Of a stretch of DNA of 33,025 nt, positions 1,957 through 30,760 are shown piece after piece (position 1 is the stretch's first letter; each line of letters starts with the position of its first letter). This stretch comes from Chloroflexota bacterium (GTDB lineage Bacteria > Chloroflexota > Dehalococcoidia > SM23-28-2 > RBG-16-64-32). The stretch covers positions 1 through 33,025 of the forward strand of contig VBJT01000122.1 of the NCBI GenBank assembly GCA_005880075.1. Direction: 5' to 3'. The notes under the pieces are model-generated. The model saw only the letters and a list, made by a program, of their open reading frames with translations. It searched no databases and was not told where the DNA came from. A program made the translations under genes and the position numbers.

Positions 1957-2951
1957 CTACGCTCTCTGTGGTTCAGCTGTTCTAATGCGGGCGCCAGCAC
2001 GCATCGCAGGCAACACCTCTCGCTCGTAGAATCGGAAGAAGCCTTCCTGGTCCGGTCCCACCTGGTGGATGTACACGTGATCGAAGCCGGCCTCGCTGAA
2101 CTTTCGAATCGCCTCGATGTGCTGGTCGGGATCAGGACCACAGATGATCTGTTCCGCAACCTGCTCCTCGGTCGCATCCGCCGTCGCCTGCTCGAAATGC
2201 GCGGGCAGCCTTAGCTCTTGACCGAGTTCCCCTTTGAGCACCGCGGTCGGCCAACATTCACGCGCCCTTCGGCGAGCGGCCGACTCGTCCTCGGCCCAGC
2301 AGACGGTCAGCTTACCGTAGCGGGGCTTGCCGGCACCCCGTTTCCCTCGAATTCCTCTACTGTCTCCTTGACCGGGGCCGTCGCGATGAGACCCTCGCCG
2401 ATGCGCCCGGCCAGACTCGCCGATTTCGTCCCGCCCGCCGCAACGTATATCGGCGGGAGTTCCTGCGGCAGCGTGTAAATCCGTGCGTTATCTACGCTGT
2501 AGTAGCGGCCGCGATGGCTTTCCGTGCCGCCCTGCCAGAGAAGCCGGATGACCTCAACGGCTTCCTCGAGCATCTCGAGCCTGACGTCGGTTGGCGGCCA
2601 GTACGTAGCGATGATGTGTTCATTAAGGTTCTCCCCGCTGCCGACACCCAGAAAGAAGCGGCCGGGCATCATGGCCGCACAGGTCGCGGCGGCTTGTGCG
2701 ATGATCGCCGGGTGGGTCCTCATCATGGGACAGGTGACGCCTGTACCTAGGCGCAGCCCTTCGGTCGCCTCGGCAATCCCGCCGATCACGCTCCAGACGA
2801 ACGGGCTCTGGCCCTGCCGGTCGATCCAGGGATGGAAGTGGTCCGAAATGAGCGCAAACGTGAACCCGGCTTCCTCCGCCCGCCGGGCATTCCGGATTAG
2901 TACATCGGGCGCGTGTTCTTCGCTCGAAAGCGCGTAACCGAATTCAGTCAT
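1957..2951 (-). pseudogene. LLM-class F420-dependent oxidoreductase, G6PDH-like family, frameshifted
   Basis: The N-terminal part (2951 down to about 2340) reads as an LLM flavin/F420 oxidoreductase: FALISDHFHPWIDRQGQSPF, LRLGTGVTCPMMRTHPA, GRFFLGVGSGENLNEH and PPIYVAAGGTKSASLAGRIG. This resembles the glucose-6-phosphate dehydrogenase-like subgroup of F420 enzymes. That frame stops at 2307. The remainder continues in another frame (KPRYGKLTVCWAEDES, then KGELGQELRLPAHFEQ) to a TAG at 1957-1959. The switch falls in a CCCC run at 2336-2339 (GGGG on the coding strand), and adding one base there restores a full-length protein. This is either a sequencing homopolymer error or a recent one-base deletion. 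The ATG at 2951 has GGAGGG 6 bases upstream. It overlaps the stop of the upstream small ORF in an ATGA. Confidence 0.8.
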
Positions 2952-3858: not shown

Positions 3859-4602
3859 AGATAGGCGTCAAGATCGGCCCGGCCAGCGAGCGCACGCTCA
3901 AGCGGGTCGCTGAAGAGGCAGAGAGAGCAGGCTTCGATTCCGTCTGGCTCAGCGAGCGCGTTGCGGTCCCGCTGGATAGACCACATCCTTATCAGCCGCT
4001 CGTCGACCCCTGGATCGGGCTGTCGTTCGTCGCCGCCGTTACGGAGAGGGTCACCCTCGGTACGAGTGTGAGCCAGATCGCCTTGCGACCGCCGGTCCTG
4101 ATGGCACGCGAGCTTGCGACGCTGGACCGCCTTTCGGAGGGCAGGCTCATCGTCGGAGCAGGGGCCGGCTGGGTGGAAGAAGAATTCACCTCGACAGCAG
4201 TCCCGTTCGAAACGCGTGGCGGCCGTCTGAACGAGTTCATCCCCCTCCTGCGGCATCTTTGGACGAGGCCCGAGGAGTCGTGGCACGGCAAGTTCTTTAG
4301 CATCCCGGCCGTTGGCCTGATCAAGCCGGCAACGCCGGGCGGCCCGCCGATTTACGTCGGCGCGGCCAGTACAGCCGGCCTCCGCCGGGCCGCACGCTAC
4401 GCGGACGGCTTCATCGCCACGGCGCTTCCGGTCACGACACTCACCAATATCAAACAAAGGCTGGAAGAGATGCGCTCACAGGGCGATGGTGAAGGACCAC
4501 GCAGCCGCCGGCGTGGACGGCCTGATCCTGACATATCCCGGAGAGCTACCAAATGCGTTCTTGGACAGCCGCGAAGTCGTCAAAGCGCTCATCGAAAGCT
4601 GA
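3855..4602 (+). pseudogene. LLM-class flavin-dependent oxidoreductase with internal deletion/frameshift; probable CTG start
   Basis: From CTG 3855 the frame reads LKIGVKIGPASERTLKRVAE, followed by LLM hallmarks VTLGTSVSQIALRPP, LSEGRLIVGAGAGWVEEEF and GGPPIYVGAASTAGLRRAAR. After LEEMRSQ (about 4480) the natural C-terminus continues in another frame (MVKDHAAAGVDGLILTYPGE, then REVVKALIES) to TGA 4600-4602. No ATG, GTG or TTG precedes this start in frame after the stop at 3816. CTG 3855 overlaps the VOC stop as CTGA, with AGGGAG 8 bases upstream. Both parts together give about 249 codons, shorter than the 280-350 usual in the family. A short segment near 4480 appears lost along with the reading frame. 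Function would be redox chemistry on an unknown substrate. Confidence 0.7.
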
Positions 4603-4638: not shown

Positions 4639-5725
4639 ATGCAGCTCACTGACGCCCAGCGCATGGTGTATACGACTGCACGCCGCTTCGCCGAACGCGA
4701 AATCAAGCCGCATATCCGCGAACGCGCGAACGACGAGTGCTTTCCGGTGGATATCATGCGGAAACTCGCCGACTCGGGTCTGCTCGGAGGCGCGTTTCCA
4801 GAGCAGTACGGCGGCGCCGGCATAGACAACGTTTCCTACGTTCTCATCTGCGAAGCGATCGGCGGCGCGAGTCCCTCGGTCTTCACCGCCGCGCTCACTG
4901 TGCAGCTTTCGCTCGTAGGAACAGCGATGTACGCGTTCGGGACGGAGGACCAGAGGAAGGACTACCTTCCGGACTTATTTTCGGATCACCGTGTTGGAGC
5001 GTGACGGGGATGACTGGGTCCTTAATGGAAGCAAGTTCTGGATATCGAACGGTTCCATCGCCGACGTCATAGTCGTCTTCGCGCAGACGCAGCCCGGAGC
5101 CCGCCACAAGGGCATGGCCGCTTTCATCGTCGATGGCGACTCGCCCGGCCTGGAGCGGCAGGTCATTACTGAGAAGCTGGGACTCCATGCCTCGAACACC
5201 GCAGCCCTGTTCTTCGATTCTGTTCGGGTGAGCGGCGATCGCCTCCTCGGCGGTACCGGAGATGGCTTCAAGATCGCGCAGACCTCCCTCGAGAGCGGCC
5301 GAACCTCGACCGCTGCCTGCGCCGTCGGCATCATCCAGGCGTGCCTCGACGCCTGTATCGCGTACGCCGGTCAGCGTAAGCAGTGGGGCAAGACTATCGG
5401 CAACCACCAGCTCATCCAGGAGATGGTTGCCGACATGGCGACGGACTGCGAGGCGGCTCGCCTGTTGACGATTGAGGCCGCACGTCTACGAGACGCCGGA
5501 GAGCCGGCCATGAAGAATGTCGTCATGGCGAAGCAGTTCGCGACGGAGGCCGCCGTGCGGGCGGCGCGCTCGGCGATCGCGCTGCATGGCGGCATCGGCT
5601 ACCTGGGCGAGTACCCCATCGAAGCGCTCTTACGAGATGCGATCGGCCTCAGTCTCTACGAGGGCACGACCCAGATCCAGAAGCTCATCCTCGGCCGCGA
5701 GCTGCTGGGCGTCCCGGCGTTTTAG
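4639..5725 (+). pseudogene. Acyl-CoA dehydrogenase with internal deletion removing the FAD signature
   Basis: The N-terminal frame (4639 to about 4983) is a typical acyl-CoA dehydrogenase start: RFAEREIKPHIRERAND, LLGGAFPEQYGGAGID, DQRKDYLPDLF. The C-terminal frame (about 4982-5725) continues with RDGDDWVLNGSKFWISNG, GRTSTAACAVGIIQACLDA, YAGQRKQWGKTIGNHQLIQE and IALHGGIGYLGEYP, ending KLILGRELLGVPAF. In intact members the two parts are joined by about 15-20 residues carrying the TEPxAGSD signature that contacts FAD and substrate. Here they are missing and the frame is shifted. The deletion therefore removes a functional motif as well as the frame. The gene would feed electrons from fatty or branched acyl-CoA oxidation to ETF. 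An assembly error remains possible. Confidence 0.8.
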
Positions 5726-9626: not shown

Positions 9627-10655
9627 CTATCCGTAGAACGTACTCGCGATGGCGCCTCCATAAGCGAGTACCTTCTGAGCCGGTAGCCCATACGGCGCCG
9701 GCACCGGACAAAGAGAATCGGCGATGTCCCACAGGGGTTCGATTCTCTTTCTCACATCGTCCGCCGGGCCACATGTAACGAACGCCTCCACCATCTCATC
9801 GGGGACGAGGTGCGCCACGCCCAAGTAATCTCCCCGCTTGACGCCCTCCTGCAGCCGCTGCGCCTCCTTCCGAAAACCGTGGGCAGCGAAATACTCTTCG
9901 TACTGGGTCATGCCGGCATAGAAGGCGATCGTCGCGCGGGAGTCGTTGATGGCTTCGGCGCGGTCGTTGTTGATCATTATCAGCGGCCAGAGGTTGATCT
10001 CAATATCGCTGCGTTGCTTGCCGGCACGAGCCAGGCCGCGCTTGATGGCCTCCGGACCGTCATTCGTCGCCCAGCGGAGCGACCAGATGGCGTGCCCCAT
10101 CACCCCGTCGGCGATTTCGGCCGCGAGGCTGACGAGAGGCCCGCGCAGACCCGCGATCCAGATCGGGAGGTCCGTGCGAAGGGGCGGCGACGGAGGCTGG
10201 AGCTCGCTGAAATCGTGCCGGTGGTAGCTCCCCTCGAAAGCCGCGAGCTCACCAGTATGCGCCTTCGCGATGATGAGCCGGATAAGCTCGACAACCTCTC
10301 GCAGATGCTCGAGCGGCTTGCCGTATGGCATTCCGAAGAATCCCTCGCTCCACGAGCGTATGCTGCAGCCGAGCCCGAGCGTGAAGCGCCCGCCGCTAAG
10401 CCGATCGAGGTCTATCGCCGCCATTGCCGTCTCGAAGGGGCTGCGCGCGAACGCCAGAGCGATTCCGGAGGTAAGCTTCACCCGCGTCGTTACAGCCGCC
10501 GCAGCCGCCAGCGGCACAAATGGCGGCCCATAGACCTGCGGGGCGAACAGCCCATCGAGACCCGCTTGCTCGTACATCTTCGCCTGGCCGGTCAGCACCC
10601 CGGGCGGCAGAGTAGGCGTAATCACACCCCAGATCGGCCTCTTTCCATCCCGCAC
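9627..10655 (-). CDS. LLM-class F420-dependent oxidoreductase (intact)
   Basis: This 342-residue protein is a complete luciferase-like monooxygenase-fold enzyme. It starts RPIWGVITPTLPPGVLTGQA and carries VKLTSGIALAFARSPFETA, LDRLSGGRFTLGLGCSIRSW and LPIWIAGLRGPLVSLAAEIA, then FVTCGPADDVRKRIEPLWDI near the C-terminus. It would use reduced F420 or FMN on an unidentified substrate. AGGAGG lies 7 bases before the GTG start. Unlike the two LLM genes at 1957-4602, it shows no disruption. Confidence 0.88.
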   Translation of the reverse strand: MRDGKRPIWGVITPTLPPGVLTGQAKMYEQAGLDGLFAPQVYGPPFVPLAAAAAVTTRVKLTSGIALAFARSPFETAMAAIDLDRLSGGRFTLGLGCSIRSWSEGFFGMPYGKPLEHLREVVELIRLIIAKAHTGELAAFEGSYHRHDFSELQPPSPPLRTDLPIWIAGLRGPLVSLAAEIADGVMGHAIWSLRWATNDGPEAIKRGLARAGKQRSDIEINLWPLIMINNDRAEAINDSRATIAFYAGMTQYEEYFAAHGFRKEAQRLQEGVKRGDYLGVAHLVPDEMVEAFVTCGPADDVRKRIEPLWDIADSLCPVPAPYGLPAQKVLAYGGAIASTFYG

Positions 10656-10749
10656 CAGCAGCCTCCTTCAAATGGTGGCGGTACTACGCACACGATACGC
10701 GGTCCTAATGCGCATTGATGACGTCATTACACTTGGGAACTGTGGGGTG

Positions 10750-10795
10750 CCGGTGGCGCTAATATGGCATCCCTCGTGCCACCGGTCAACGATAT
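10750..10795. repeat. 8-bp inverted repeat in the glpK upstream region
   Basis: CCGGTGGC (10750-10757) and GCCACCGG (10788-10795) are perfect reverse complements 30 bases apart, 38-83 bases before glpK. The spacing suggests a looped operator rather than a terminator. A 10-bp palindrome, ATGACGTCAT (10718-10727), lies just upstream. Either may bind a regulator. Confidence 0.3.
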
Positions 10796-10817
10796 CGACA
10801 GTCTCCAACGCCGATGC

Positions 10818-10823
10818 TAACCT
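10818..10823 (+). promoter_or_regulatory. Extended -10 box close to the glpK start
   Basis: TGC-TAACCT ends 9 bases before ATG 10833, with no ribosome-binding site between. A transcript from here would have a leader of only a few bases. No clear -35 is seen. Confidence 0.3.
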
Positions 10824-10832
10824 TGCCGCAAT

Positions 10833-12326
10833 ATGGCGGACTTGGTGCTCGCTCTAGACCAAGGGACATCTTCCAGTCGGGCCATCCTGTTTGACCATTC
10901 GGGGAACGCCGTTGCCTCCGCCCAGCAGCCGTTCGAGCAGATATACCCGCAGCCTGGCTGGGTTGAACACGACCCGGAGGACGTCTGGCAAACGCAGCTG
11001 GCGACCGCTCAGGAAGCGCTGAAGCAGGCAAAGGCAACCGCGGACGATGTAGCCGCGATCGGCATCACGAATCAGCGCGAGACCACGCTCCTCTGGGACC
11101 ACAACGGCCGCCCAATCGCCAACGCCATCGTCTGGCAAGACAGACGTACCGCACCGATCTGCGACGAAATGCGAGACAAGGGCTTGGAGCCTCTGTTCCG
11201 CGAGCGGACGGGCCTGCTGCTTGACCCGTACTTCTCTGGAACAAAGGTGAAATGGCTCCTCGATAATGTCAGCAGCGCCCGTGCCCTTGCCGAAGCCGGC
11301 GACCTGAGGTTCGGCACGGTCGATTCCTGGTTGCTCTATCGCCTGACGGGCCTCCACGCGACGGACTATACGAACGCCTCGCGCACCCTGCTCTACAACA
11401 TCTTCGACCTGGGCTGGGATGATGAATTGCTATCAGCCCTCGAAGTTCCTCGAGGCATCTTGCCTCCCGTGCGGGCATCCTCCGGCGTCTTCGCTGAGAC
11501 GAGCTTGTTTGGCAAATCCGTGCCCGTCGCCGGAATCGGAGGCGACCAGCAGGCAGCCCTCTTCGGGCAAGCGGCATTCGAGCCGGGCATGGCGAAGAAC
11601 ACATATGGCACCGGCGCGTTCTGCCTGATGAACATCGGCGAGCGGAAGGTCGCCTCAAAGAATCTGCTGACCACAATCGCCTGGGGGATATCCGGTGCGG
11701 AGCGCGACGAAGTCGTATACGCGCTCGAAGGCTCCATCTTCATCGCAGGCGCGGCCGTCCAATGGCTACGGGACGAGTTGGGCATCATTTCGACCGCCGC
11801 CGAATCCCAGGAGCTTGCGCTGAGCGTGCCCGACTCGAACGGGGTTTATGTCGTGCCAGCGTTCGTCGGCCTGGCGGCGCCACACTGGGACCCGAGCGCG
11901 CGCGGTGCCATCTTCGGGCTCACGCGCGGTGCCAACCGGGCGCATCTCGCCCGCGCGACGCTGGAAGCGATCGCGTTTCAGACTTGCGATGTAATTGATG
12001 CTATCGAAGCTGACTCTGGCGTGACGCTTTCCGAGCTGCGCGTCGACGGCGGCGCCGCGGCGAACGACCTGCTTCTCCAGATTCAGGCTGACCTGCTCGG
12101 CCGGGACGTCGTGAGGCCGGCGGTGCTCGAGACGACCGCGCTTGGAGCAGCTTATCTGGCCGGCCTGGCGACCGGGTTCTGGAGGGATGCGTCGGACGTT
12201 TCCAAGAACTGGCGCATCGACCGCCGCTTCAGCCCGCAAATGGCTGCTGACAGGCGGGCCGAGATGTATGCCGGCTGGAAGCGCGCGGTTGAGCGCGTAA
12301 AGGGATGGAGCACGGCCGGGGCCTGA
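10833..12326 (+). CDS. glpK: Glycerol kinase
   Basis: The 497-residue protein matches bacterial glycerol kinase in length and motifs. It has the N-terminal phosphate-binding [33 protein letters not shown] and [16 protein letters not shown], the Asp/Arg-containing [10 protein letters not shown], the FGGY signature region [17 protein letters not shown], and the C-terminal adenosine motif [20 protein letters not shown]. It phosphorylates glycerol to sn-glycerol-3-phosphate with ATP in the cytoplasm. No glpD or glpF lies nearby. It ends 12 bases from a convergent gene. Function is assigned with high confidence. Confidence 0.97.
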
Positions 12327-20544: not shown

Positions 20545-20724
20545 TTATTCGATGTCTTCACGCGCGCGGCGTTCGCGCATCATCTCGTAGAGGAGGTTCT
20601 CTACAATCATGAGGAGGAGGAGGACCTGGCGCTGCTGGCGGCGGGACATGCGCCCCAGCATCTGGAGTAGTTCAGGGTCAATCTTTTCGGCGAGAGCGAG
20701 GCGGTCGTCCGGCAGGTCGGCCAT
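20545..20724 (-). CDS. 59-aa microprotein resembling the C-terminus of the adjacent XRE regulators
   Basis: This short ORF encodes MADLPDDRLALAEKIDPELL then QMLGRMSRRQQRQVLLLLMI, ending RRAREDIE. Its core, IDPELLQMLGRMSRRQQRQV, aligns without gaps with VDAGLLGYLGKMPRDRQRRL of the XRE gene just upstream and VDPDLLSFLARIPREQQARL of the next one. It lacks the helix-turn-helix. The ATG overlaps the upstream stop as TAATG, which indicates translational coupling. It could heterodimerise with the regulators through the shared C-terminal module and modulate them. Confidence 0.6.
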   Translation of the reverse strand: MADLPDDRLALAEKIDPELLQMLGRMSRRQQRQVLLLLMIVENLLYEMMRERRAREDIE

Positions 20725-21206
20725 TAGCGACGGGCCCGCCTGAGCTCCGGATGTCCCTTCGAGACGGTCGTTACCGGCGAACGCTTCAGGGCGAGCGGGC
20801 CGGTGGTCACGCCGTCCGGGGTCGCCCAGTCAGGCCCGTTGGCGGTTACGGAGTAGCCGTTGAGCACTTGCTCCATACCCTGGAGGATGAGGAGCAAGCG
20901 GCGCTGGCGGTCCCGCGGCATTTTGCCGAGATAGCCAAGCAGGCCGGCATCTACCGTCGATTCGTAGTCCTGGTAGACCTGGCGGAGCATGCGCACGGTC
21001 GGATAGCCCGCAGCTTCGAAGAGCTCATCGGGATCGATCTGCATCGCCTGAGCGACGCGCAGCAAGACAGCCGCCGAGGGGTTCTTCACCTCGCCGTTTT
21101 CGAGTTGCGAGAGGTAGCCCTGGCTCACCGAGGAGCCGCTGGCGAGCTGTCCCTGGGTGAGACCGAGCTCATCGCGTATTTGCCTGATCCTGTCTCCTAA
21201 TCGCAT
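20724..21206 (-). CDS. XRE-family transcriptional regulator (copy 1)
   Basis: The 160-residue protein begins with a classical Xre/Cro HTH: MRLGDRIRQIRDELGLTQGQ, then VSQGYLSQLENGEVKNPSAA, residues about 1-60. A linker and a leucine/arginine-rich module (VDAGLLGYLGKMPRDRQRRL, about 92-111) follow, then a disordered basic tail. ATG 21206 was chosen because GGAG lies 7 bases upstream and the HTH starts there; the longer frame would add 10 residues. It is paralogous to the regulator at 21318-21698 and lies downstream of the tad genes on the same strand. It may control them, but no operator was identified. Confidence 0.82.
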   Translation of the reverse strand: MRLGDRIRQIRDELGLTQGQLASGSSVSQGYLSQLENGEVKNPSAAVLLRVAQAMQIDPDELFEAAGYPTVRMLRQVYQDYESTVDAGLLGYLGKMPRDRQRRLLLILQGMEQVLNGYSVTANGPDWATPDGVTTGPLALKRSPVTTVSKGHPELRRARR

Positions 21207-21317
21207 CTTGTCGCTCCGCCTAACTGAGAGTCGCAAAAATTGTCGATGCTCCTCGCCAGCTTGTCAATAATTCCTCTTGCCGCTGCCCCGAATCGATGGA
21301 CGGGGATCGGGTGCTCC

Positions 21318-21698
21318 CTAACTAGCGCTGGGCCTGGCGGCCGCTGTGGCTCCGCGCTCCATCCCCTTGAACAGCTTGAGCAGGCGTGCCTGCTGCTCTC
21401 TCGGAATTCGCGCCAGAAACGATAAGAGATCAGGGTCGACAGAGACCTCGTAGCGGCCCGCGTTCCCCTCCTCCTGCCCGATCTCCGCGTAGCCGGCCGC
21501 TTGCATGAGAACGCGGGGGTCGATATGGAGCGAGCGGGCCAGCCGAAAGATGACGGCCGCGCTCGGGTTCTGGACATCGTCGTTCTCGAGCTGCGATAGG
21601 TAGCCCTGGCTGAGCTCCGCCTGGGCAGCAAGCTGCGCCTGGCTCATACTGAGCTCGTCCCGAAGACCCCGGATTTTCTTTCCCAGCGACACCCGCAT
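21318..21698 (-). CDS. XRE-family transcriptional regulator (copy 2)
   Basis: The 126-residue protein has an N-terminal HTH (MRVSLGKKIRGLRDELSMSQ, then LSQGYLSQLENDDVQNPSAA) nearly superimposable on that of copy 1. Its C-terminal module, VDPDLLSFLARIPREQQARL, is shared with copy 1 and with the microprotein. It starts 6 bases after the tadC stop, so it belongs to the pilus operon. The pair probably arose by duplication. A DNA target cannot be predicted. Confidence 0.83.
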   Translation of the reverse strand: MRVSLGKKIRGLRDELSMSQAQLAAQAELSQGYLSQLENDDVQNPSAAVIFRLARSLHIDPRVLMQAAGYAEIGQEEGNAGRYEVSVDPDLLSFLARIPREQQARLLKLFKGMERGATAAARPSAS

Positions 21699-21704
21699 AT
21701 CTCC

Positions 21705-22589
21705 TTACGAGAGGGACTGAGCGATGCGGATGGCAGCCGGCCCGAGAATAACGAGCAGGAAAGCCGGGAAAATGAACAGCACGAGCGGGAAAAGCATCTT
21801 GATCGGCGCCTCGTGGGCAGACTTCTCGGCCCGCTGCCGGCGCTTGGTACGAAGCTGATCAGACTGCACGCGAAGCACCTGCGCGATGCCGACACCAAGC
21901 TGCTCGGCCTGAATGATCGAGGTGATGAACGTGGTGAGCTCCTCAACACCAATGCGCTGTTCCAGTTCGGTCATCGCCTCCCTACGCATCTTACCCATCG
22001 CGACGTCGCGCAACATGCGAGAAACAACGCGGGCGAGAGCGGCGTCCAGACCGAGGCCGGCCTCCACACAGGTGGTGATCAGGTCCATCGCGTCGGGCAT
22101 GGCCCGGATCACCAGCTTCTGACGGGCCTTTACTTTGCCCTTGAGCCAGATGCGCGGGAACACGAAGCCAAGGGCCGCGAACATTACAACAAAGAGCAGT
22201 TTCTGAATGAGCAGGCTGCCGGGAAGGACGACGAAGAAGACGAGGCCCAGTCCGGTAAACGTTGAGAAGAGTACCCCCCAGAAAGTGAGATACGTTTGAA
22301 GGGTCATAGGATGGCCCGCCATCATCAGCTGTTTCTGTATGTCGGACAAGACCGAAGCTGGAAGCACCGAACTGATGGTGCGGGAGAACCCTTCGATGGT
22401 CGGCCTGAGTACTCGCTCGCCGAAGGGAAGTTCCAGGTTTACCTCATCCTCTTCCATAGAGACCGCGCGAGTGCGAAAGTCCTGAATTCGGGATTCCATG
22501 CTGGTGCCGCGCTTAGCGCCGCCGAACATGGCGTAGACGATGGACATTATCGCCCCAAAGACAGATACAGCTGCGAATGCGATGATCAT
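21705..22589 (-). CDS. tadC: Tad pilus inner-membrane protein TadC (type II secretion F family)
   Basis: The 294-residue protein has an N-terminal membrane helix, a cytoplasmic GspF-type domain (AMPDAMDLITTCVEAGLGLD, then ALARVVSRM, EELTTFITSIIQAEQLGVGI) and C-terminal hydrophobic helices (MLFPLVLFIFPAFLLVILGP). With TadB it forms the platform on which the ATPase TadA assembles Flp pili. AGGAG, overlapping the TAG that ends the extended tadB frame, lies about 7 bases before ATG 22589. This favours the extended tadB frame as the original gene end. Confidence 0.9.
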   Translation of the reverse strand: MIIAFAAVSVFGAIMSIVYAMFGGAKRGTSMESRIQDFRTRAVSMEEDEVNLELPFGERVLRPTIEGFSRTISSVLPASVLSDIQKQLMMAGHPMTLQTYLTFWGVLFSTFTGLGLVFFVVLPGSLLIQKLLFVVMFAALGFVFPRIWLKGKVKARQKLVIRAMPDAMDLITTCVEAGLGLDAALARVVSRMLRDVAMGKMRREAMTELEQRIGVEELTTFITSIIQAEQLGVGIAQVLRVQSDQLRTKRRQRAEKSAHEAPIKMLFPLVLFIFPAFLLVILGPAAIRIAQSLS

Positions 22590-22598
22590 TTGTGGCTC

Positions 22599-22691
22599 CT
22601 AAATCTCAATCGCCATGATTCGCTTCATGGAGAAGTAGCCCATGAGCTGGAGGCCGATTGCCGCGACCAGCATGCCCTTGCCGATCGTCTA
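22599..22691 (-). other. In-frame continuation of tadB after an amber codon
   Basis: After TAG 22691-22689 the same frame runs 29 more codons (TIGKGMLVAAIGLQLMGYFS, then MKRIMAIEI) to a TAG at 22601-22599. This is the characteristic last membrane helix and basic tail of TadB proteins. It contains no other gene, and its end meets the tadC ribosome-binding site. The amber codon is therefore a nonsense change, a sequencing error or read-through within tadB. Confidence 0.65.
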
Positions 22692-23588
22692 GGTGATGAG
22701 GAGGCTCATGTAACCCGGGTTCATAACCATGAAGATCGCGAACATGAACACCGGGAGGCCGCCGATAACGATACCCGTCATCTTCTGCTGGGCCACCAGC
22801 GTATTGATCTCGCCCCGGATGCGCTCCCGCTCGCGCATGGTACTCGCAACCTTGTCCAGAATCTCGGCCAGGTTGCCGCCGACCGTGCGCTGTATATTGA
22901 TCGCGGTGAGGACCATATCGAGGTCGCTGCTGTCGATGCGCTCGCCGACGGCGTTCAGAGCATCCTCAGCGCCCATGCCCAGGTTGGAGTCGCGAAGCAT
23001 CCTGCGGATCTCCAGGGAGATTGGGGGCTGCATTTGCCTCGAGGCGAACTCGAAACTCTGCATAAGGCCGTAACCGGACTTAAGCGAGTTCGAGACTAAG
23101 CCAAGAAGGTCGACGAGTTGCTGGTTGATTTTGTTTAGCCGCGACTTCTTCTTGTTGTTCACCCACATAGCGGGCAGCATATAGCCGACCACCGAAAGGC
23201 CAATGCCGAGAAACAGGTTGAAGGCGGCGAAGCCGAAAACGAAAGGAATGACGAGAAAGAGCGCCGCCATACCCCAACGAATCAGGTAGAATTCGCCGAC
23301 GCGCAGGGGGACGGCCGCACGCTCGAGGTGAATGGCCATCGCCTCCGAGCCGCCAAACTGGGCAAGGAATGTGCTGAGCACGGGTAGGCCGCTGTAAGAG
23401 CGCTTCTCTCGGAAGGTGGCTTTGCCCGGCGCGGCAGTGCTCTGCGGAAGCGGCCCTCCTCCGGAACGAAAAGCTTCCAGCCGCGAGCTCATCGGGTCGT
23501 CCTGCCCGCCCCGGCTTGTAAGGCCAACAGCTGCCAGGATGAACGCGAAGAAGATGGTGATAGCAATGCCGATAATAAGTGGGTCCAT
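22689..23588 (-). CDS. tadB: Tad pilus inner-membrane protein TadB, interrupted by an amber codon near its end
   Basis: The 299-residue open part has an N-terminal helix (PLIIGIAITIFFAFILAAVG), a variable linker, two central helices (MAALFLVIPFVFGFAAFNLF) and the GspF domain (QQLVDLLGLVSNSLKSGYGL, then QSFEFASRQM; LNAVGERIDSSDLDMVLTAI). It stops at TAG 22689-22691 just before the final membrane helix. With the 29 codons beyond, the protein would be about 329 residues, normal for TadB. A truncated product would lose one helix and have an altered topology. It works with TadC as the pilus assembly platform. The start lies 2 bases after the tadA stop. Confidence 0.85.
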   Translation of the reverse strand: MDPLIIGIAITIFFAFILAAVGLTSRGGQDDPMSSRLEAFRSGGGPLPQSTAAPGKATFREKRSYSGLPVLSTFLAQFGGSEAMAIHLERAAVPLRVGEFYLIRWGMAALFLVIPFVFGFAAFNLFLGIGLSVVGYMLPAMWVNNKKKSRLNKINQQLVDLLGLVSNSLKSGYGLMQSFEFASRQMQPPISLEIRRMLRDSNLGMGAEDALNAVGERIDSSDLDMVLTAINIQRTVGGNLAEILDKVASTMRERERIRGEINTLVAQQKMTGIVIGGLPVFMFAIFMVMNPGYMSLLIT

Positions 23589-23590
23589 GA

Positions 23591-24943
23591 TTACCTCGCG
23601 CGGGCCAGGAACAGCCCGTCCGGGAGTTTGATCCCGGACTGTTCGAACTGCTCGGTAAATGTGGGCCGGATGCCCGTAGGCGACATCAGCCCTTCGATCT
23701 TGCCCTCAGGGCTGACGCCGGTCTGCTGGAATCGGAAAAGGTCCTGCAGGGTGATGATCTGCCCTTCCATTCCGCTGACCTCAGTGACGTGAGTAACGCG
23801 CCGGACACCGTCCGTGAACCGCGAGAGCTGGACAATGAGGTGCAGGGCCGAAGCAACCTGCTCGCGGATCGCCCTGTCCGGCAGCTCGAGGCCGGCCATG
23901 AGGACCATGTTCTCGACACGGGCGAGCCCGTCTCGCGGAGAGTTGGCGTGGACGGTGGACATAGAGCCTTCGTGGCCGGTGTTCATGGCGTTGAGCATGT
24001 CGAACGCCTCCTGGCCTCGGATCTCGCCGATGATGATCCTGTCAGGCCGCATGCGCAGTGTGTTGCGCAGGAGGTCTCTCTGGGATACCTCGCCGCGGCC
24101 GTCTATATTGGCCGGCCGCGCCTCCAGACTGACGATGTGCGGCTGCTGCATCTTGATTTCGACCGGGTCCTCGATGGTGATAATGCGCTCTGTTTCAGGG
24201 ATATACGCCGAGAGCGCATTGAGGAACGTGGTCTTGCCGGTACCCGTACCGCCCGAGATGAGGATGTTCAGTTTGACCTGCACGCAGGCCTTCAGGAACT
24301 CCACCATGTCTTCGGTGATGGTGCTGGCGTTGACGAGGTCGTTCATCTGGAGCTTGTCGGCGCGGAATTTTCGGATGGTAATAGTCGGGCTCTTCGGCGC
24401 GACGGGTGGAATCACGACGTTGACACGCGACCCGTCCGGCAGGCGCGCGTCCACCATTGGAGACGACTCATCGACACGCCGTCCAATCGGCGCGATGATC
24501 CGCTCAATGACGCGCGCGATGTGCTGGTCGTCGCGGAAGCGGACGTCGCTCAGGTAGAGGATACCCTCGCGCTCGAAGTAGACCTCGTCGGGCCGGTTGA
24601 CCATGACCTCTGAAATCGAGGGGTCGCGCATGAGAGCGTCGATCGGCCCCAGGCCGACGACCTCGTCGACGACGCGCGACACGATCTGGTCGCGGGTGAT
24701 GCCACCGACGCCGGGCATCTCACGCCGCAGCAGCGTCTCGGCCGCCTGCTCGACGACTTTGCGGCGCTCATCTGCGGGCATGGCGCTGATCTGGTCCGCA
24801 TCCAGCTCATCGATGAGCATCTGGTGCATGCGGAAGATAAGCTGCTCCATATCCTCGTTGTAGCGGCCAGGCGTCGTCCGGCTCGGGCCCATGGCCGGCC
24901 GTAGAGTGGGTGCCTGGGGTCTGCCTGATTGAAAGCTTGTCAT
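23591..24943 (-). CDS. tadA: Tad pilus assembly ATPase TadA (CpaF)
   Basis: The protein (450 residues from ATG 24943) is a secretion ATPase of the VirB11/PulE superfamily. It has the Walker A motif ISGGTGTGKTTFLNALS at about residue 230, the Walker B/Asp box with IIGEIRGQEAFDMLNAMNTG and the His box GSMSTVHANSPRDGL. The upstream domain has VGLGPIDALMRDPSISEVMV and DGSRVNVVIPPVAPKSPTIT. ATP hydrolysis drives Flp pilin extraction and assembly. ATG 24943 is chosen because GGAG, at the end of cpaE, lies about 8 bases upstream. The gene is 4 bases downstream of the cpaE stop. Confidence 0.93.
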   Translation of the reverse strand: MTSFQSGRPQAPTLRPAMGPSRTTPGRYNEDMEQLIFRMHQMLIDELDADQISAMPADERRKVVEQAAETLLRREMPGVGGITRDQIVSRVVDEVVGLGPIDALMRDPSISEVMVNRPDEVYFEREGILYLSDVRFRDDQHIARVIERIIAPIGRRVDESSPMVDARLPDGSRVNVVIPPVAPKSPTITIRKFRADKLQMNDLVNASTITEDMVEFLKACVQVKLNILISGGTGTGKTTFLNALSAYIPETERIITIEDPVEIKMQQPHIVSLEARPANIDGRGEVSQRDLLRNTLRMRPDRIIIGEIRGQEAFDMLNAMNTGHEGSMSTVHANSPRDGLARVENMVLMAGLELPDRAIREQVASALHLIVQLSRFTDGVRRVTHVTEVSGMEGQIITLQDLFRFQQTGVSPEGKIEGLMSPTGIRPTFTEQFEQSGIKLPDGLFLARAR

Positions 24944-24947
24944 CTTG

Positions 24948-26198
24948 TCACTCCACACTTACTTCAGTTTTGTCTTCAGGGACCGATCCAAGGATCCGGC
25001 TAAGCAGGCCGCCCTTCTGCACTTCTCTTGGCTTGGGCGCCTGTTGCTGCCGCCGGACCCCGCTTAGCGCGTAAGCCATTTCCGTCAGGCTCTCGGACGC
25101 CTTGGACTGGGGCTTCGCGACCACCACCGGCATGCCCAGCTGCGTGGCGGCGCTAATGTTGCGGTCGTAAGGCACCGCCCAGAAGACGTCGCGGCCCAGC
25201 ATTCGCCGGATTTCGTGGGGCTGGACATTACTGGCCTCGTTGGTCGAATTAATTACGAGTTTGATCTTGTCCTGCGGAAAGTTCCAGGAGCGCAGCATGT
25301 CGATGGCGAGCAGGGTGTCCTTCAGGCTCGCCATATCGACCGTGCAGATGAGGACAACCATAGTTGCCATCTCCAGCGCCCGGGCGACGATGTCGTTGAA
25401 GGTGCCGGGCGTGTCCAGGATGACGTAGTCGTGGGTCTGCATGAGCAGGGTGACAACGCGCTCGATGTGGCCGGCGTGGACGTTGCGCCAGTCCGTGGGC
25501 CGGATCGGCGCAGGAAGGATCGTGACGCCGGTGTTGTGCGTGTACGTGCACTCCTCGACGATCTCGCGCGTAATATCTTCCTCTGGCATCGCCAGGTCCG
25601 CGATGCTCCGCTCGACCGGGATGTCCATGAGAATCGCGACGTCACCGAACCGCGTGTCGAGGTCAACGACGACGACCGACTGTTTGGTCTTCTGAACGAG
25701 CGCGGTCGCGAGGTTGGTGGCGATCGTCGTCTTGCCGATGCCGCCCTTGGCGCCGAATACGGTGACGACCGTGCCCGCGGCGATCGGTTCGTCCGTTTCG
25801 CCTGCGAGCCTGGCCCGGCGCCGTTCCTCCTGTGCGAGGACCGCGTGGATGGAGTTGATTAGCTCCTCTTCCTTCACGGGGCTGCCGAGGTAGTCCTTGA
25901 CACCCGCCACCATCGCCTTACGCATCGGCCCGGAGCCCTTGATCGAGGAGTGGCCGATGATTGGGGACTGCGGCAGGAGGTCCGCCAGGGCCTCGACCGT
26001 TTGTAGCGCCCGGATCTGGGGCTCTTCGATGGCGATTACGACCACATCCGGCTCGGTCTTCTTGGCCAGCGAGACGGCCTCGATGCCGTAGCCCGCCTCT
26101 CCGAGGACGCTGAACCCGGAAAGGGCGAGCATCTTCTGCACCTCGTCCCGGCTTACGGGTTCGGGGCCAATCACAATCACGCGTGGATTACGTGCCAT
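24948..26198 (-). CDS. cpaE: CpaE-like protein: pseudo-receiver plus MinD-type ATPase (TadZ)
   Basis: Residues 1-120 fold as a receiver domain (RVIVIGPEPVSRDEVQKMLA), but the phospho-Asp position is Ala56 (VVVIAIEEP), the acidic pair is lost and the conserved Lys is replaced in YLGSPV. It is a phosphorylation-dead receiver. From about residue 135 a ParA/MinD ATPase follows, with the deviant Walker A FGAKGGIGKTTIATNLATAL, SVVVVDLDTRFGDVAILMDI and YVILDTPGTFNDIVARALEM. Such TadZ/CpaE proteins position the pilus machinery at a cell pole or site. The C-terminus is basic. It lies between cpaB and tadA in the operon. Confidence 0.9.
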   Translation of the reverse strand: MARNPRVIVIGPEPVSRDEVQKMLALSGFSVLGEAGYGIEAVSLAKKTEPDVVVIAIEEPQIRALQTVEALADLLPQSPIIGHSSIKGSGPMRKAMVAGVKDYLGSPVKEEELINSIHAVLAQEERRRARLAGETDEPIAAGTVVTVFGAKGGIGKTTIATNLATALVQKTKQSVVVVDLDTRFGDVAILMDIPVERSIADLAMPEEDITREIVEECTYTHNTGVTILPAPIRPTDWRNVHAGHIERVVTLLMQTHDYVILDTPGTFNDIVARALEMATMVVLICTVDMASLKDTLLAIDMLRSWNFPQDKIKLVINSTNEASNVQPHEIRRMLGRDVFWAVPYDRNISAATQLGMPVVVAKPQSKASESLTEMAYALSGVRRQQQAPKPREVQKGGLLSRILGSVPEDKTEVSVE

Positions 26199-26237: not shown

Positions 26238-27095
26238 CTATTGGCCGAGGGCCGAAACACCCAGGACTTTGGCACAGGTCGGAGGCGGACCGTCGGCCGG
26301 CCACTGCGTGCGGTTGGAGAGCGCTTGACCGTCTCCGACGCCGCGCAGCGAGACGGACAAGCGGCCGCCGTGGTTGTGCGCACATGTTTCGGCCATCGCC
26401 ACAGTCTCACCCTGTATCGGCGATACACCAAGGGTCATGCTCGTGGCCGCCTGGTTAGCCTGCGTGGATTTACTGGGATCGCTGCTAGCCTCGGCATTTG
26501 GGTTGGTCGTCGTCTGGTCAACGGCCAGGACTTTTGCGTTCTGGATGATGGTGGCCGCCAACTGGTCCGATGTGCCCTGCGTGTCCCCTTCGGGCTTGAC
26601 CTGCACGATCAGAATCACGTCCACGAAGTCGCCGGGCCGGATGTTTCCGCCGGCGCCGATGACGCTGCTCAGCTCAATTGAGACCGCGCGCTGGCCCGGG
26701 TCGATGATGAGTGCCAGCGGCGGCTTGTCGCCAAATGCACTGATATTCGTAGTGCCGGTGACCTTGGTCTGGATGATCTGTTCGCCCGCAACAAGAGGCA
26801 CTCGCGTCACCTGACCGGACAGCCCCTCGACGCTCGAGAAAGCGCCGGCGAGCTGGGTGCCCTGGGGGATGCTTTCGACTCGGAGCATGGCGGCAGTCAG
26901 GCGCGTGCCGGCGGGAATCTCCTGTGCCGCGACAACTGTCGGCGCACCTTCACCGTTGCTGCTCGTGGAGCCGCCTTCGTCCTTGGCGCTGGTCAGGTAG
27001 ACCACCACGAGGACCGCTGCGACGAGGCCCAGGATGAGCCCGAGGATAAGCGGGAGTCTGCTGCCGCCCTTGGAAAGGGCCATACCTTTAATCAT
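26238..27095 (-). CDS. cpaB: Flp pilus assembly protein CpaB (RcpC)
   Basis: The 285-residue protein has an N-terminal membrane anchor (LPLILGLILGLVAAVLVVVY, residues about 14-33), a SAF-type domain (VVAAQEIPAGTRLTAAMLRV) and the CpaB/RcpC core (ALIIDPGQRAVSIELSSVIG, NIRPGDFVDVILIVQVKP, AATIIQNAKVLAVDQ). A Cys-containing C-terminus follows. In diderms CpaB acts with the secretin; here it probably acts at the cell wall. The start at 27095 has GAGGTG 5 bases upstream. It is the first gene of the tad operon and has its own ECF promoter. Confidence 0.87.
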   Translation of the reverse strand: MIKGMALSKGGSRLPLILGLILGLVAAVLVVVYLTSAKDEGGSTSSNGEGAPTVVAAQEIPAGTRLTAAMLRVESIPQGTQLAGAFSSVEGLSGQVTRVPLVAGEQIIQTKVTGTTNISAFGDKPPLALIIDPGQRAVSIELSSVIGAGGNIRPGDFVDVILIVQVKPEGDTQGTSDQLAATIIQNAKVLAVDQTTTNPNAEASSDPSKSTQANQAATSMTLGVSPIQGETVAMAETCAHNHGGRLSVSLRGVGDGQALSNRTQWPADGPPPTCAKVLGVSALGQ

Positions 27096-27402: not shown

Positions 27403-27864
27403 TCACTCCAACCGCATATCAGCCGTCGAAGTGAACTTCAGCGTCGGGCCGATTTTACCGCCGCTTATTAAGCCGAGCATGTTGTCAAGAGGGGTGATCA
27501 GGTCGTAGTCGTAATCAACCTTCACCACAACCGACGAGCCCGGCGTGCCCTGTGCGTTAGTGACGGTCGAGGTGAGCTTCGCCTGGTTCAGCGACTCGGC
27601 CGTTTCCTTGACGCGGCAGGTGATATTCGTGGCTTTCGTGCTGGGATCGTTATCGCAGGCGCCGGAAGCAGGAGCTCTGACCGCCCCAAGCCGAGCACCC
27701 TCGCGGGCTGAGTTAGTTACTGTGAGCCAGGCGTGGAAGCCGAGACCGAAGTCGATGATGGCGAAGACCAAAATGAGGAAGATCGGCAAGACGAGGACGA
27801 ATTCGGCCAGGCTCTGGCCCTTTTCGCCCTTTCGCAAGAGTCCCTTTGTGCGCTTGGTAGTCAT
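27403..27864 (-). CDS. tadE: TadE/TadG-like pilus assembly (minor pseudopilin) protein
   Basis: The protein (153 residues from ATG 27864) begins with a basic segment, then the TadE signature KGQSLAEFVLVLPIFLILVF and IIDFGLGFHAWLTVTNSARE, that is, a prepilin-like cleavage region with Glu at +5 and one hydrophobic helix. Two Cys follow in the external domain (GACDNDP and NITCRVK), perhaps forming a disulfide. It is likely processed by a prepilin peptidase and acts as a minor pilin. ATG 27864 was preferred to the longer frame because GGGACGG lies upstream and the motif then stands near the N-terminus. It lies downstream of flp1 with no clear terminator between. Confidence 0.85.
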   Translation of the reverse strand: MTTKRTKGLLRKGEKGQSLAEFVLVLPIFLILVFAIIDFGLGFHAWLTVTNSAREGARLGAVRAPASGACDNDPSTKATNITCRVKETAESLNQAKLTSTVTNAQGTPGSSVVVKVDYDYDLITPLDNMLGLISGGKIGPTLKFTSTADMRLE

Positions 27865-28023
27865 TCTGATCCGTCCCTTCCGTCCGGCCCGCGGACGAGC
27901 CGCAGAGTCTTGATAAGAGAGCGCAGGGGTCACGGCCTATCGGCGCGCGACCCCCGAGCTACCTTGTTATCAACAACAGCGGTCTGTTGCCGACGTTTGA
28001 GCCCTGAAGGCTCCGGATCGATC

Positions 28024-28206
28024 TTAGAGCGAGCCCGTGATGCTGGACAGGGTGCCCGCGATCGCCAGACCCAGGGCAGTCAGCGCGAGGATGCAAACGA
28101 CCGCGATGAGGGCCAGAAGCAGACCGTACTCGGCCAGCGCCTGTCCGTCCTCACGCTCGTGGCGCGACGCGAACCACACCAGGGCTTCGTTGATCTTGGA
28201 GAGCAT
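28024..28206 (-). CDS. flp1: Flp-family type IVb pilin (copy 1)
   Basis: The 60-residue protein is a Flp major pilin. It has a short basic/acidic leader (MLSKINEALVWFASRHERED), then GQALAEYGLLLALIAVVCIL with Glu-Tyr at +5/+6 after the Gly cleavage site, and a hydrophobic helix ending LSSITGSL. ATG 28206 has GGAGGAG 4-5 bases upstream. The hydrophobic region is identical to copy 2, and the differences concentrate in the leader. The leader is removed by a prepilin peptidase such as that at 30032. It has its own ECF-type promoter (28266-28292). Confidence 0.92.
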   Translation of the reverse strand: MLSKINEALVWFASRHEREDGQALAEYGLLLALIAVVCILALTALGLAIAGTLSSITGSL

Positions 28207-28265
28207 TCGTCTCCTCCTTTCCAAACTAATTGATCGCTTGGTTGAGAACCTTCTCCGCCAAGTTA

Positions 28266-28434: not shown

Positions 28435-28617
28435 TTAGAAAGCGCCGGTGATGCTGGACAGCGTGCCAGCGATCGCCAGACCCAGGGCGGTCAGCGCGAG
28501 GATGCAAACGACCGCGATGAGGGCCAGAAGCAGACCGTACTCGGCCAGCGCCTGTCCGTCCTCGCGCTCGACGCGCGTCGCGAGCCGCGTCAGAGTCTCG
28601 TTGATCTTGGAGAGCAT
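28435..28617 (-). CDS. flp2: Flp-family type IVb pilin (copy 2)
   Basis: This 60-residue pilin reads MLSKINETLTRLATRVERED, then GQALAEYGLLLALIAVVCIL, ending LSSITGAF. The processed helix is the same as in copy 1, and only the leader and last residues differ. AGGAGGAG lies a few bases before ATG 28617. It is monocistronic: own ECF promoter (28675-28701) and a strong terminator right behind. That suits high expression of the major pilin. Confidence 0.92.
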   Translation of the reverse strand: MLSKINETLTRLATRVEREDGQALAEYGLLLALIAVVCILALTALGLAIAGTLSSITGAF

Positions 28618-28674
28618 TCGTCTCCTCCTTTCCAAAAAATTGATCGCTTGGTAAGGACCGTCTCCGTGAAGTTA

Positions 28675-30031: not shown

Positions 30032-30760
30032 GTGATATTTTTTGCAGCTCTGATCGGTTTCGCCGTGGGCCACCTCGTCCACCTCCTCTTCGACCGCTTC
30101 TTCAGCGGAGAGCCAGTGCGCGGGCCGCTCTACGAATGTCCGGCCTGCCGTTCACCTGTTAGACCGGTCGCGGCCATACCCTACGCCACCGTGGTCCTTT
30201 CCGGCGGCCGCTGTCCCAACTGCCGCGAGAAACTGCCCTGGCGCGCGGTGATACTTCCAGCCGGCGCAGCGGGCCTTTTCGCCCTGTCGTACCTGGCGTT
30301 CGATGAATTGGCCGCCGGCCTCCTGGGTGGGTTGTTCGCAACCGTCTTCTTGACCCTCACTCTTACCGACCTAGAACGCCGGCTGCTTCCGAACCGCATC
30401 GTCTACCCTTCGATTCTGCTGGCGATTGCCTTCTGTTGGGCCTGGCCGGACACGACCTGGGTGCAGATCCTGGCGGGCGGCGCCGTTGCGATAGCGATCG
30501 CCGTGCTCATCTACCTCTTCTCACTGTTGTTCGGCCCGGAAGCCTTCGGGATGGGCGACGTCAAAATGATCGTCCTCATCGGGTTTGTCGTCGGATTCCC
30601 GGCCGTGATTGTTGCCGTATTGCTCGGGACCGTCGCTGCGGGGATTGTCGCCGCTGTTCTGGTTGTTACCCGCCTGCGCGGGCTACGAGACTACGTGGCT
30701 CATGGGCCCTTTCTGGCCCTGGGCGCCGTCCTGGCGCTGTTGGCCCAGCATAGTCATTGA
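30032..30760 (+). CDS. Prepilin peptidase (A24 family, PilD/TadV-like)
   Basis: The 242-residue membrane protein has the zinc-binding cysteine pairs Cys36/Cys39 (YECPACR) and Cys61/Cys64 (GRCPNCREK) of a PilD-type N-methylation region. It also has the two catalytic Asp: Asp113 in TLTDLERRLLPNRIVYPS and Asp176 in AFGMGDVKMIVLIG. About seven hydrophobic helices are visible. It would cleave the Flp and TadE leaders encoded at 27403-28617. The start GTG 30032 has only a weak ribosome-binding site (GAGTAA). The N-terminal segment is shorter than in PilD, so methylation ability is uncertain. No ECF promoter was found upstream, unlike its neighbours. Confidence 0.9.
   Translation: MIFFAALIGFAVGHLVHLLFDRFFSGEPVRGPLYECPACRSPVRPVAAIPYATVVLSGGRCPNCREKLPWRAVILPAGAAGLFALSYLAFDELAAGLLGGLFATVFLTLTLTDLERRLLPNRIVYPSILLAIAFCWAWPDTTWVQILAGGAVAIAIAVLIYLFSLLFGPEAFGMGDVKMIVLIGFVVGFPAVIVAVLLGTVAAGIVAAVLVVTRLRGLRDYVAHGPFLALGAVLALLAQHSH

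Follow-up and report, generated by a model that had tools for sequence, protein, structure and literature searches.

The closest described relatives of the gene examined here are the TadB (CpaG) proteins of Tad pili, also called type IVc or Flp pili, which belong to the PF00482 family. Our tadB gene shares with them the T2SSF domain, the gene order tadZ-tadA-tadB-tadC, a C-terminal helix that ends in KRIMAIEI, and a terminal TAG placed inside the ribosome-binding site of tadC; it differs from them in a premature TAG at codon 300 that would remove the last transmembrane helix. Two additional groups of known events are comparable with this locus. The first one corresponds to ordinary nonsense alleles in one of two paralogous loci, in which, as here, a single substitution creates a stop codon, the downstream sequence is intact and a paralogue is present. 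The second one corresponds to stop-codon recoding by an amber suppressor tRNA, by pyrrolysine or by programmed read-through, in which an in-frame TAG is likewise followed by conserved coding sequence. A case with two tad loci has been reported in Micrococcus luteus, where transformation fell more than 100-fold, but was not abolished, when tadB was deleted, and partial complementation by the paralogue was put forward by the authors (PMC4322843).

The window considered in our study is a stretch of 33,025 nucleotides from a Chloroflexota bacterium (contig VBJT01000122.1 of assembly GCA_005880075.1). On its minus strand it contains a cluster of tad genes for a type IVc pilus, with a prepilin peptidase gene nearby on the plus strand, and within this locus tadB adjoins tadA on one side and tadC on the other. 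The features of the locus are as follows.

21705-22589, minus strand: tadC, intact (PF00482)
22596-22601, minus strand: TAGGAG, the tadB terminator overlapping the tadC Shine-Dalgarno sequence (a reading of the letters; similar overlap in close relatives)
22599-22601, minus strand: original tadB terminator TAG, conserved in the family
22602-22688, minus strand: 29 stranded codons for the last TadB transmembrane helix and the C-terminus (predicted AlphaFold2 helix 301-328)
22689-22691, minus strand: premature in-frame TAG, codon 300 (a sense codon in all relatives that reach the site)
22692-23588, minus strand: portion of tadB ahead of the premature stop, 299 codons, with the T2SSF domain at residues 164-287 (PF00482, E 3.3e-19)
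23591-24958, minus strand: tadA/cpaF ATPase, intact (PF00437)
24948-26198, minus strand: tadZ/cpaE, intact
26238-27095, minus strand: rcpC/cpaB, intact (PF16976, PF08666)
27403-27933, minus strand: TadE-like minor pilin (PF07811)
28024-28224, minus strand: Flp-like pilin 1, 66 aa, EDGQALAEYGLLLALIAVVCI (identified from sequence only)
28435-28635, minus strand: Flp-like pilin 2, a near copy of pilin 1 (identified in the same way)
30032-30760, plus strand: prepilin peptidase, A24 (PF01478, PF06750)

The two Flp-like pilin genes stand in tandem on the minus strand, are near-identical, and both have TTG as their listed start.

The tadB frame opens at position 23588 and hits the in-frame TAG at 22689-22691, past which it remains open for 29 sense codons (TIGKGMLVAAIGLQLMGYFSMKRIMAIEI). 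This post-stop frame aligns with all full-length relatives at their C-terminus, 7 to 19 of its 29 residues being identical, and consequently it is genuine tadB and not a chance open frame. The TAG that closes it forms the first half of the TAGGAG hexamer, which precedes the tadC ATG (22587-22589) by 6 nt; in close relatives, tadB also terminates in TAG, followed by a similar purine-rich stretch before tadC. A first-pass annotation of this DNA had described the amber codon inside tadB, a standard TadB C-terminus encoded beyond it, and a second TAG forming part of the tadC ribosome-binding site, and the three descriptions are borne out by our direct reading and by the alignment with the relatives.

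The T2SSF domain of TadB was recognized with 69.5 bits against a Pfam cut-off of 25.2. A search by sequence found no solved TadB structure. An AlphaFold2 model, in which the TAG was read as a residue and which was built on an alignment of 31 sequences (mean pLDDT of 76), predicts a long helix at residues 240-289, a short helix at 291-299 and a final helix at 301-328, the latter with a pLDDT of about 80. According to this model, the final helix falls beyond the stop, in agreement with the earlier claim that the last membrane helix is intact there, and the translated product would be left without a complete C-terminal transmembrane helix; since the stop is located at the boundary that precedes this helix, the product would lose exactly the final helix. 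It might be argued that a TadB shortened in this way still works and that this lineage can do without the last helix, given that the T2SSF domain is complete ahead of the stop and that the remaining tad locus is intact. We give this possibility very little credence: the helix is kept in every full-length relative, Gly303 and Gly317 are nearly invariant among the 31 sequences, and the tail equals the body of the protein in its degree of conservation.

TadB homologues were present in 41 of the 100 related genomes, and at the position of the stop all 28 full-length homologues aligned from these genomes encode an amino acid. Among the twelve closest ones, eight encode Glu (six with GAG, including loci L007 and L008, and two with GAA) and four encode Thr. 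At this site, the genome's own second TadB (L002, on contig C211) carries Glu (GAA) and no stop. GAG is one base away from TAG, and the stop would most simply have arisen by the change of one base in a Glu codon. The residue at this site varies across the TadB family (E, T, D, H, and N), and it is thus not an obvious functional motif. Of the sense codons that the first-pass annotation had proposed for the relatives (CAG, GAG, or AAG), GAG was found, in a variable column composed mostly of GAG/GAA (Glu) or ACN (Thr). The nearest TadB homologue among named records, 92% identical, comes from the Chloroflexi MAG isolate CF_22 ('14_0903_13_40cm'), and the next-nearest from a Dehalococcoidia bacterium record. 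The only homologue of the same genus belongs to a sister species and is 92% identical over 276 residues; its contig stops at TadB residue 276, that is, 24 residues before the site, and for this reason the sister species does not serve to date the mutation. We did not find tadC in the sister-species genome, and tadB is absent from the other genome of the genus.

A further reading is that programmed read-through or amber suppression yields TadB in its full length, perhaps in controlled amounts. In its favour, the tail is in frame and conserved, whereas the remaining observations oppose it. Both release factors, RF1 (C61) and RF2 (C40), which we told apart by our own reading of their recognition-loop motifs, are encoded in the genome. 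None of the 28 tRNA genes that were read has a CUA anticodon, in a genome that is 79% complete and in which several expected tRNAs are missing; the first-pass annotation had advised looking for an amber-suppressor tRNA. PylS was not found in this 79%-complete genome either. TAG is an ordinary terminator here: several other genes of the window end in it, as does tadB in almost all close relatives. The RNA downstream of the stop folds no better than its shuffled versions (z of -0.61), and we discarded a read-through-stimulating RNA structure on this basis. The stop is not conserved among the relatives. The genome was covered through a sample of its contigs, and in-frame stops were found in none of 79 matches to three large families (26, 21, and 32 matches) outside this locus. 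A first comparison with the sister genome gave apparent in-frame stops, which were traced to a low-complexity stretch, to antisense frames or to upstream leaders; once the hits had been filtered and inspected, about 66 genes common to both genomes were left with no genuine in-frame stop. A change of genetic code, or suppression, was likewise rejected as a candidate on RF1, the tRNAs, PylS and the use of TAG as terminator. In contrast with the known cases of recoding, the window presents a single, unconserved stop, with RF1 present, TAG in use as terminator and no dedicated tRNA or synthetase found. The release factors, tRNAs, PylS search, TAG usage, RNA fold and absence of other in-frame stops thus make suppression or programmed read-through highly improbable. 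Fainter still is the chance that the TAG acts as a leaky switch, in which basal read-through would give a little full-length TadB and thereby limit pilus assembly or tune tadC translation; if this were true, it would represent a form of regulation in which a stop codon sits immediately ahead of the final membrane helix.

The first-pass annotation had offered three readings of the stop: a fresh nonsense mutation, suppression or read-through, and a base-calling error. Read-through is unsupported by the above, and the other two both fit the data. In order to look for decay in the stranded tail, tail and body identities to relatives were set side by side in 13 family members. Against 12 relatives, the tail of the window tadB lies on the trend set by the identity of the body, with a mean residual of +0.011 against a range of -0.056 to +0.080 in the intact copies. 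The earlier view that the tail has not decayed further is therefore upheld, in the sense that no decay is detectable in a test to which 29 codons give low power. The absence of decay is what a recent mutation would give, and a consensus error equally.

A consensus error, or a mixture of strains, would mean that the population lacks the stop altogether, or that the stop is a minority allele fixed by a low-coverage, short-read assembly, tadB itself being intact. We regard this explanation as doubtful in itself and nevertheless as a serious rival, because the draft contains several other unmarked lesions that break reading frames, three of them in the window. The draft genome comprises 2.6 Mb in 281 contigs, is 79% complete and has short runs of N in many contigs; the assembly is probably of the short-read type. 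Relative to the sister species, there are unmarked coding deletions of 35 bp and 44 bp (L142:9569 and L161:5523) with well-conserved flanks, and the sister genome has no frame breaks of its own in the shared genes. The missing decay of the tail also agrees with an error. On the other hand, tadB is altered by a substitution and the other genes by small indels or deletions, and no other substitution-type stop appears in the approximately 66 shared genes or in the 79 domain matches. These other frame-breaking lesions could be real or assembly faults. Those of the window affect three conserved genes in its first 5.7 kb: a luciferase-like monooxygenase (2077-2951, minus strand) that occupies two frames (profile positions 12-198, then 221-314) and is split near 2307; a second luciferase-like monooxygenase (3891-4600, plus strand) with a frame change near 4480 and its C-terminal part, HAAAGVDGLILTYPGELPNAFLDSREVVKALIES, in another frame; and an acyl-CoA dehydrogenase (4639-5725, plus strand) that is broken near 5000, where the frame changes and the middle domain is short of about 25 residues.

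We consider it reasonably probable that the stop is a recent nonsense mutation in the tadB gene of one of two tad loci. Codon 300 would have changed from a sense codon, most probably Glu, to TAG, and the truncated TadB would still have its cytoplasmic T2SSF domain and its penultimate transmembrane helix while losing the last helix and the C-terminus. The function of this platform protein is expected to be lost or strongly reduced, and the cell may tolerate this thanks to another tad locus, on contig C211, in which tadB and tadC are uninterrupted. The presence of the allele in the cells, the inactivity of its protein and the compensation by this other locus are our inferences. The function of this second locus is uncertain, since its tadA (L152, G000:C211:40001-60000, 10452-11759) has an in-frame gap of 21 residues in a conserved ATPase stretch, at the stretch matching EGSMSTVHANSPRDGLARVEN; the gap may be either a real deletion or an assembly fault like others in this genome.

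When compared with ordinary nonsense alleles, which are pseudogenizing point mutations, the window tadB shows nothing distinctive. If the stop is real, this lineage with its two tad loci offers a naturally truncated Tad platform protein that lacks nothing but the final helix, and with it a small natural test of the redundancy between the loci. It is also important to consider it as a warning that gene breaks in this draft assembly need read support before they are interpreted biologically. A search of the literature for stop codons in draft metagenome genomes brought up nothing.

With the nonsense mutation in place, ribosomes would be released 90 nt ahead of the normal release point, which is the terminator overlapping the tadC ribosome-binding site. 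The translation of tadC might be affected by this change, and tadC retains its own Shine-Dalgarno sequence. Just downstream of tadC, two similar helix-turn-helix regulators are encoded in tandem on the minus strand (20724-21236 and 21318-21698).
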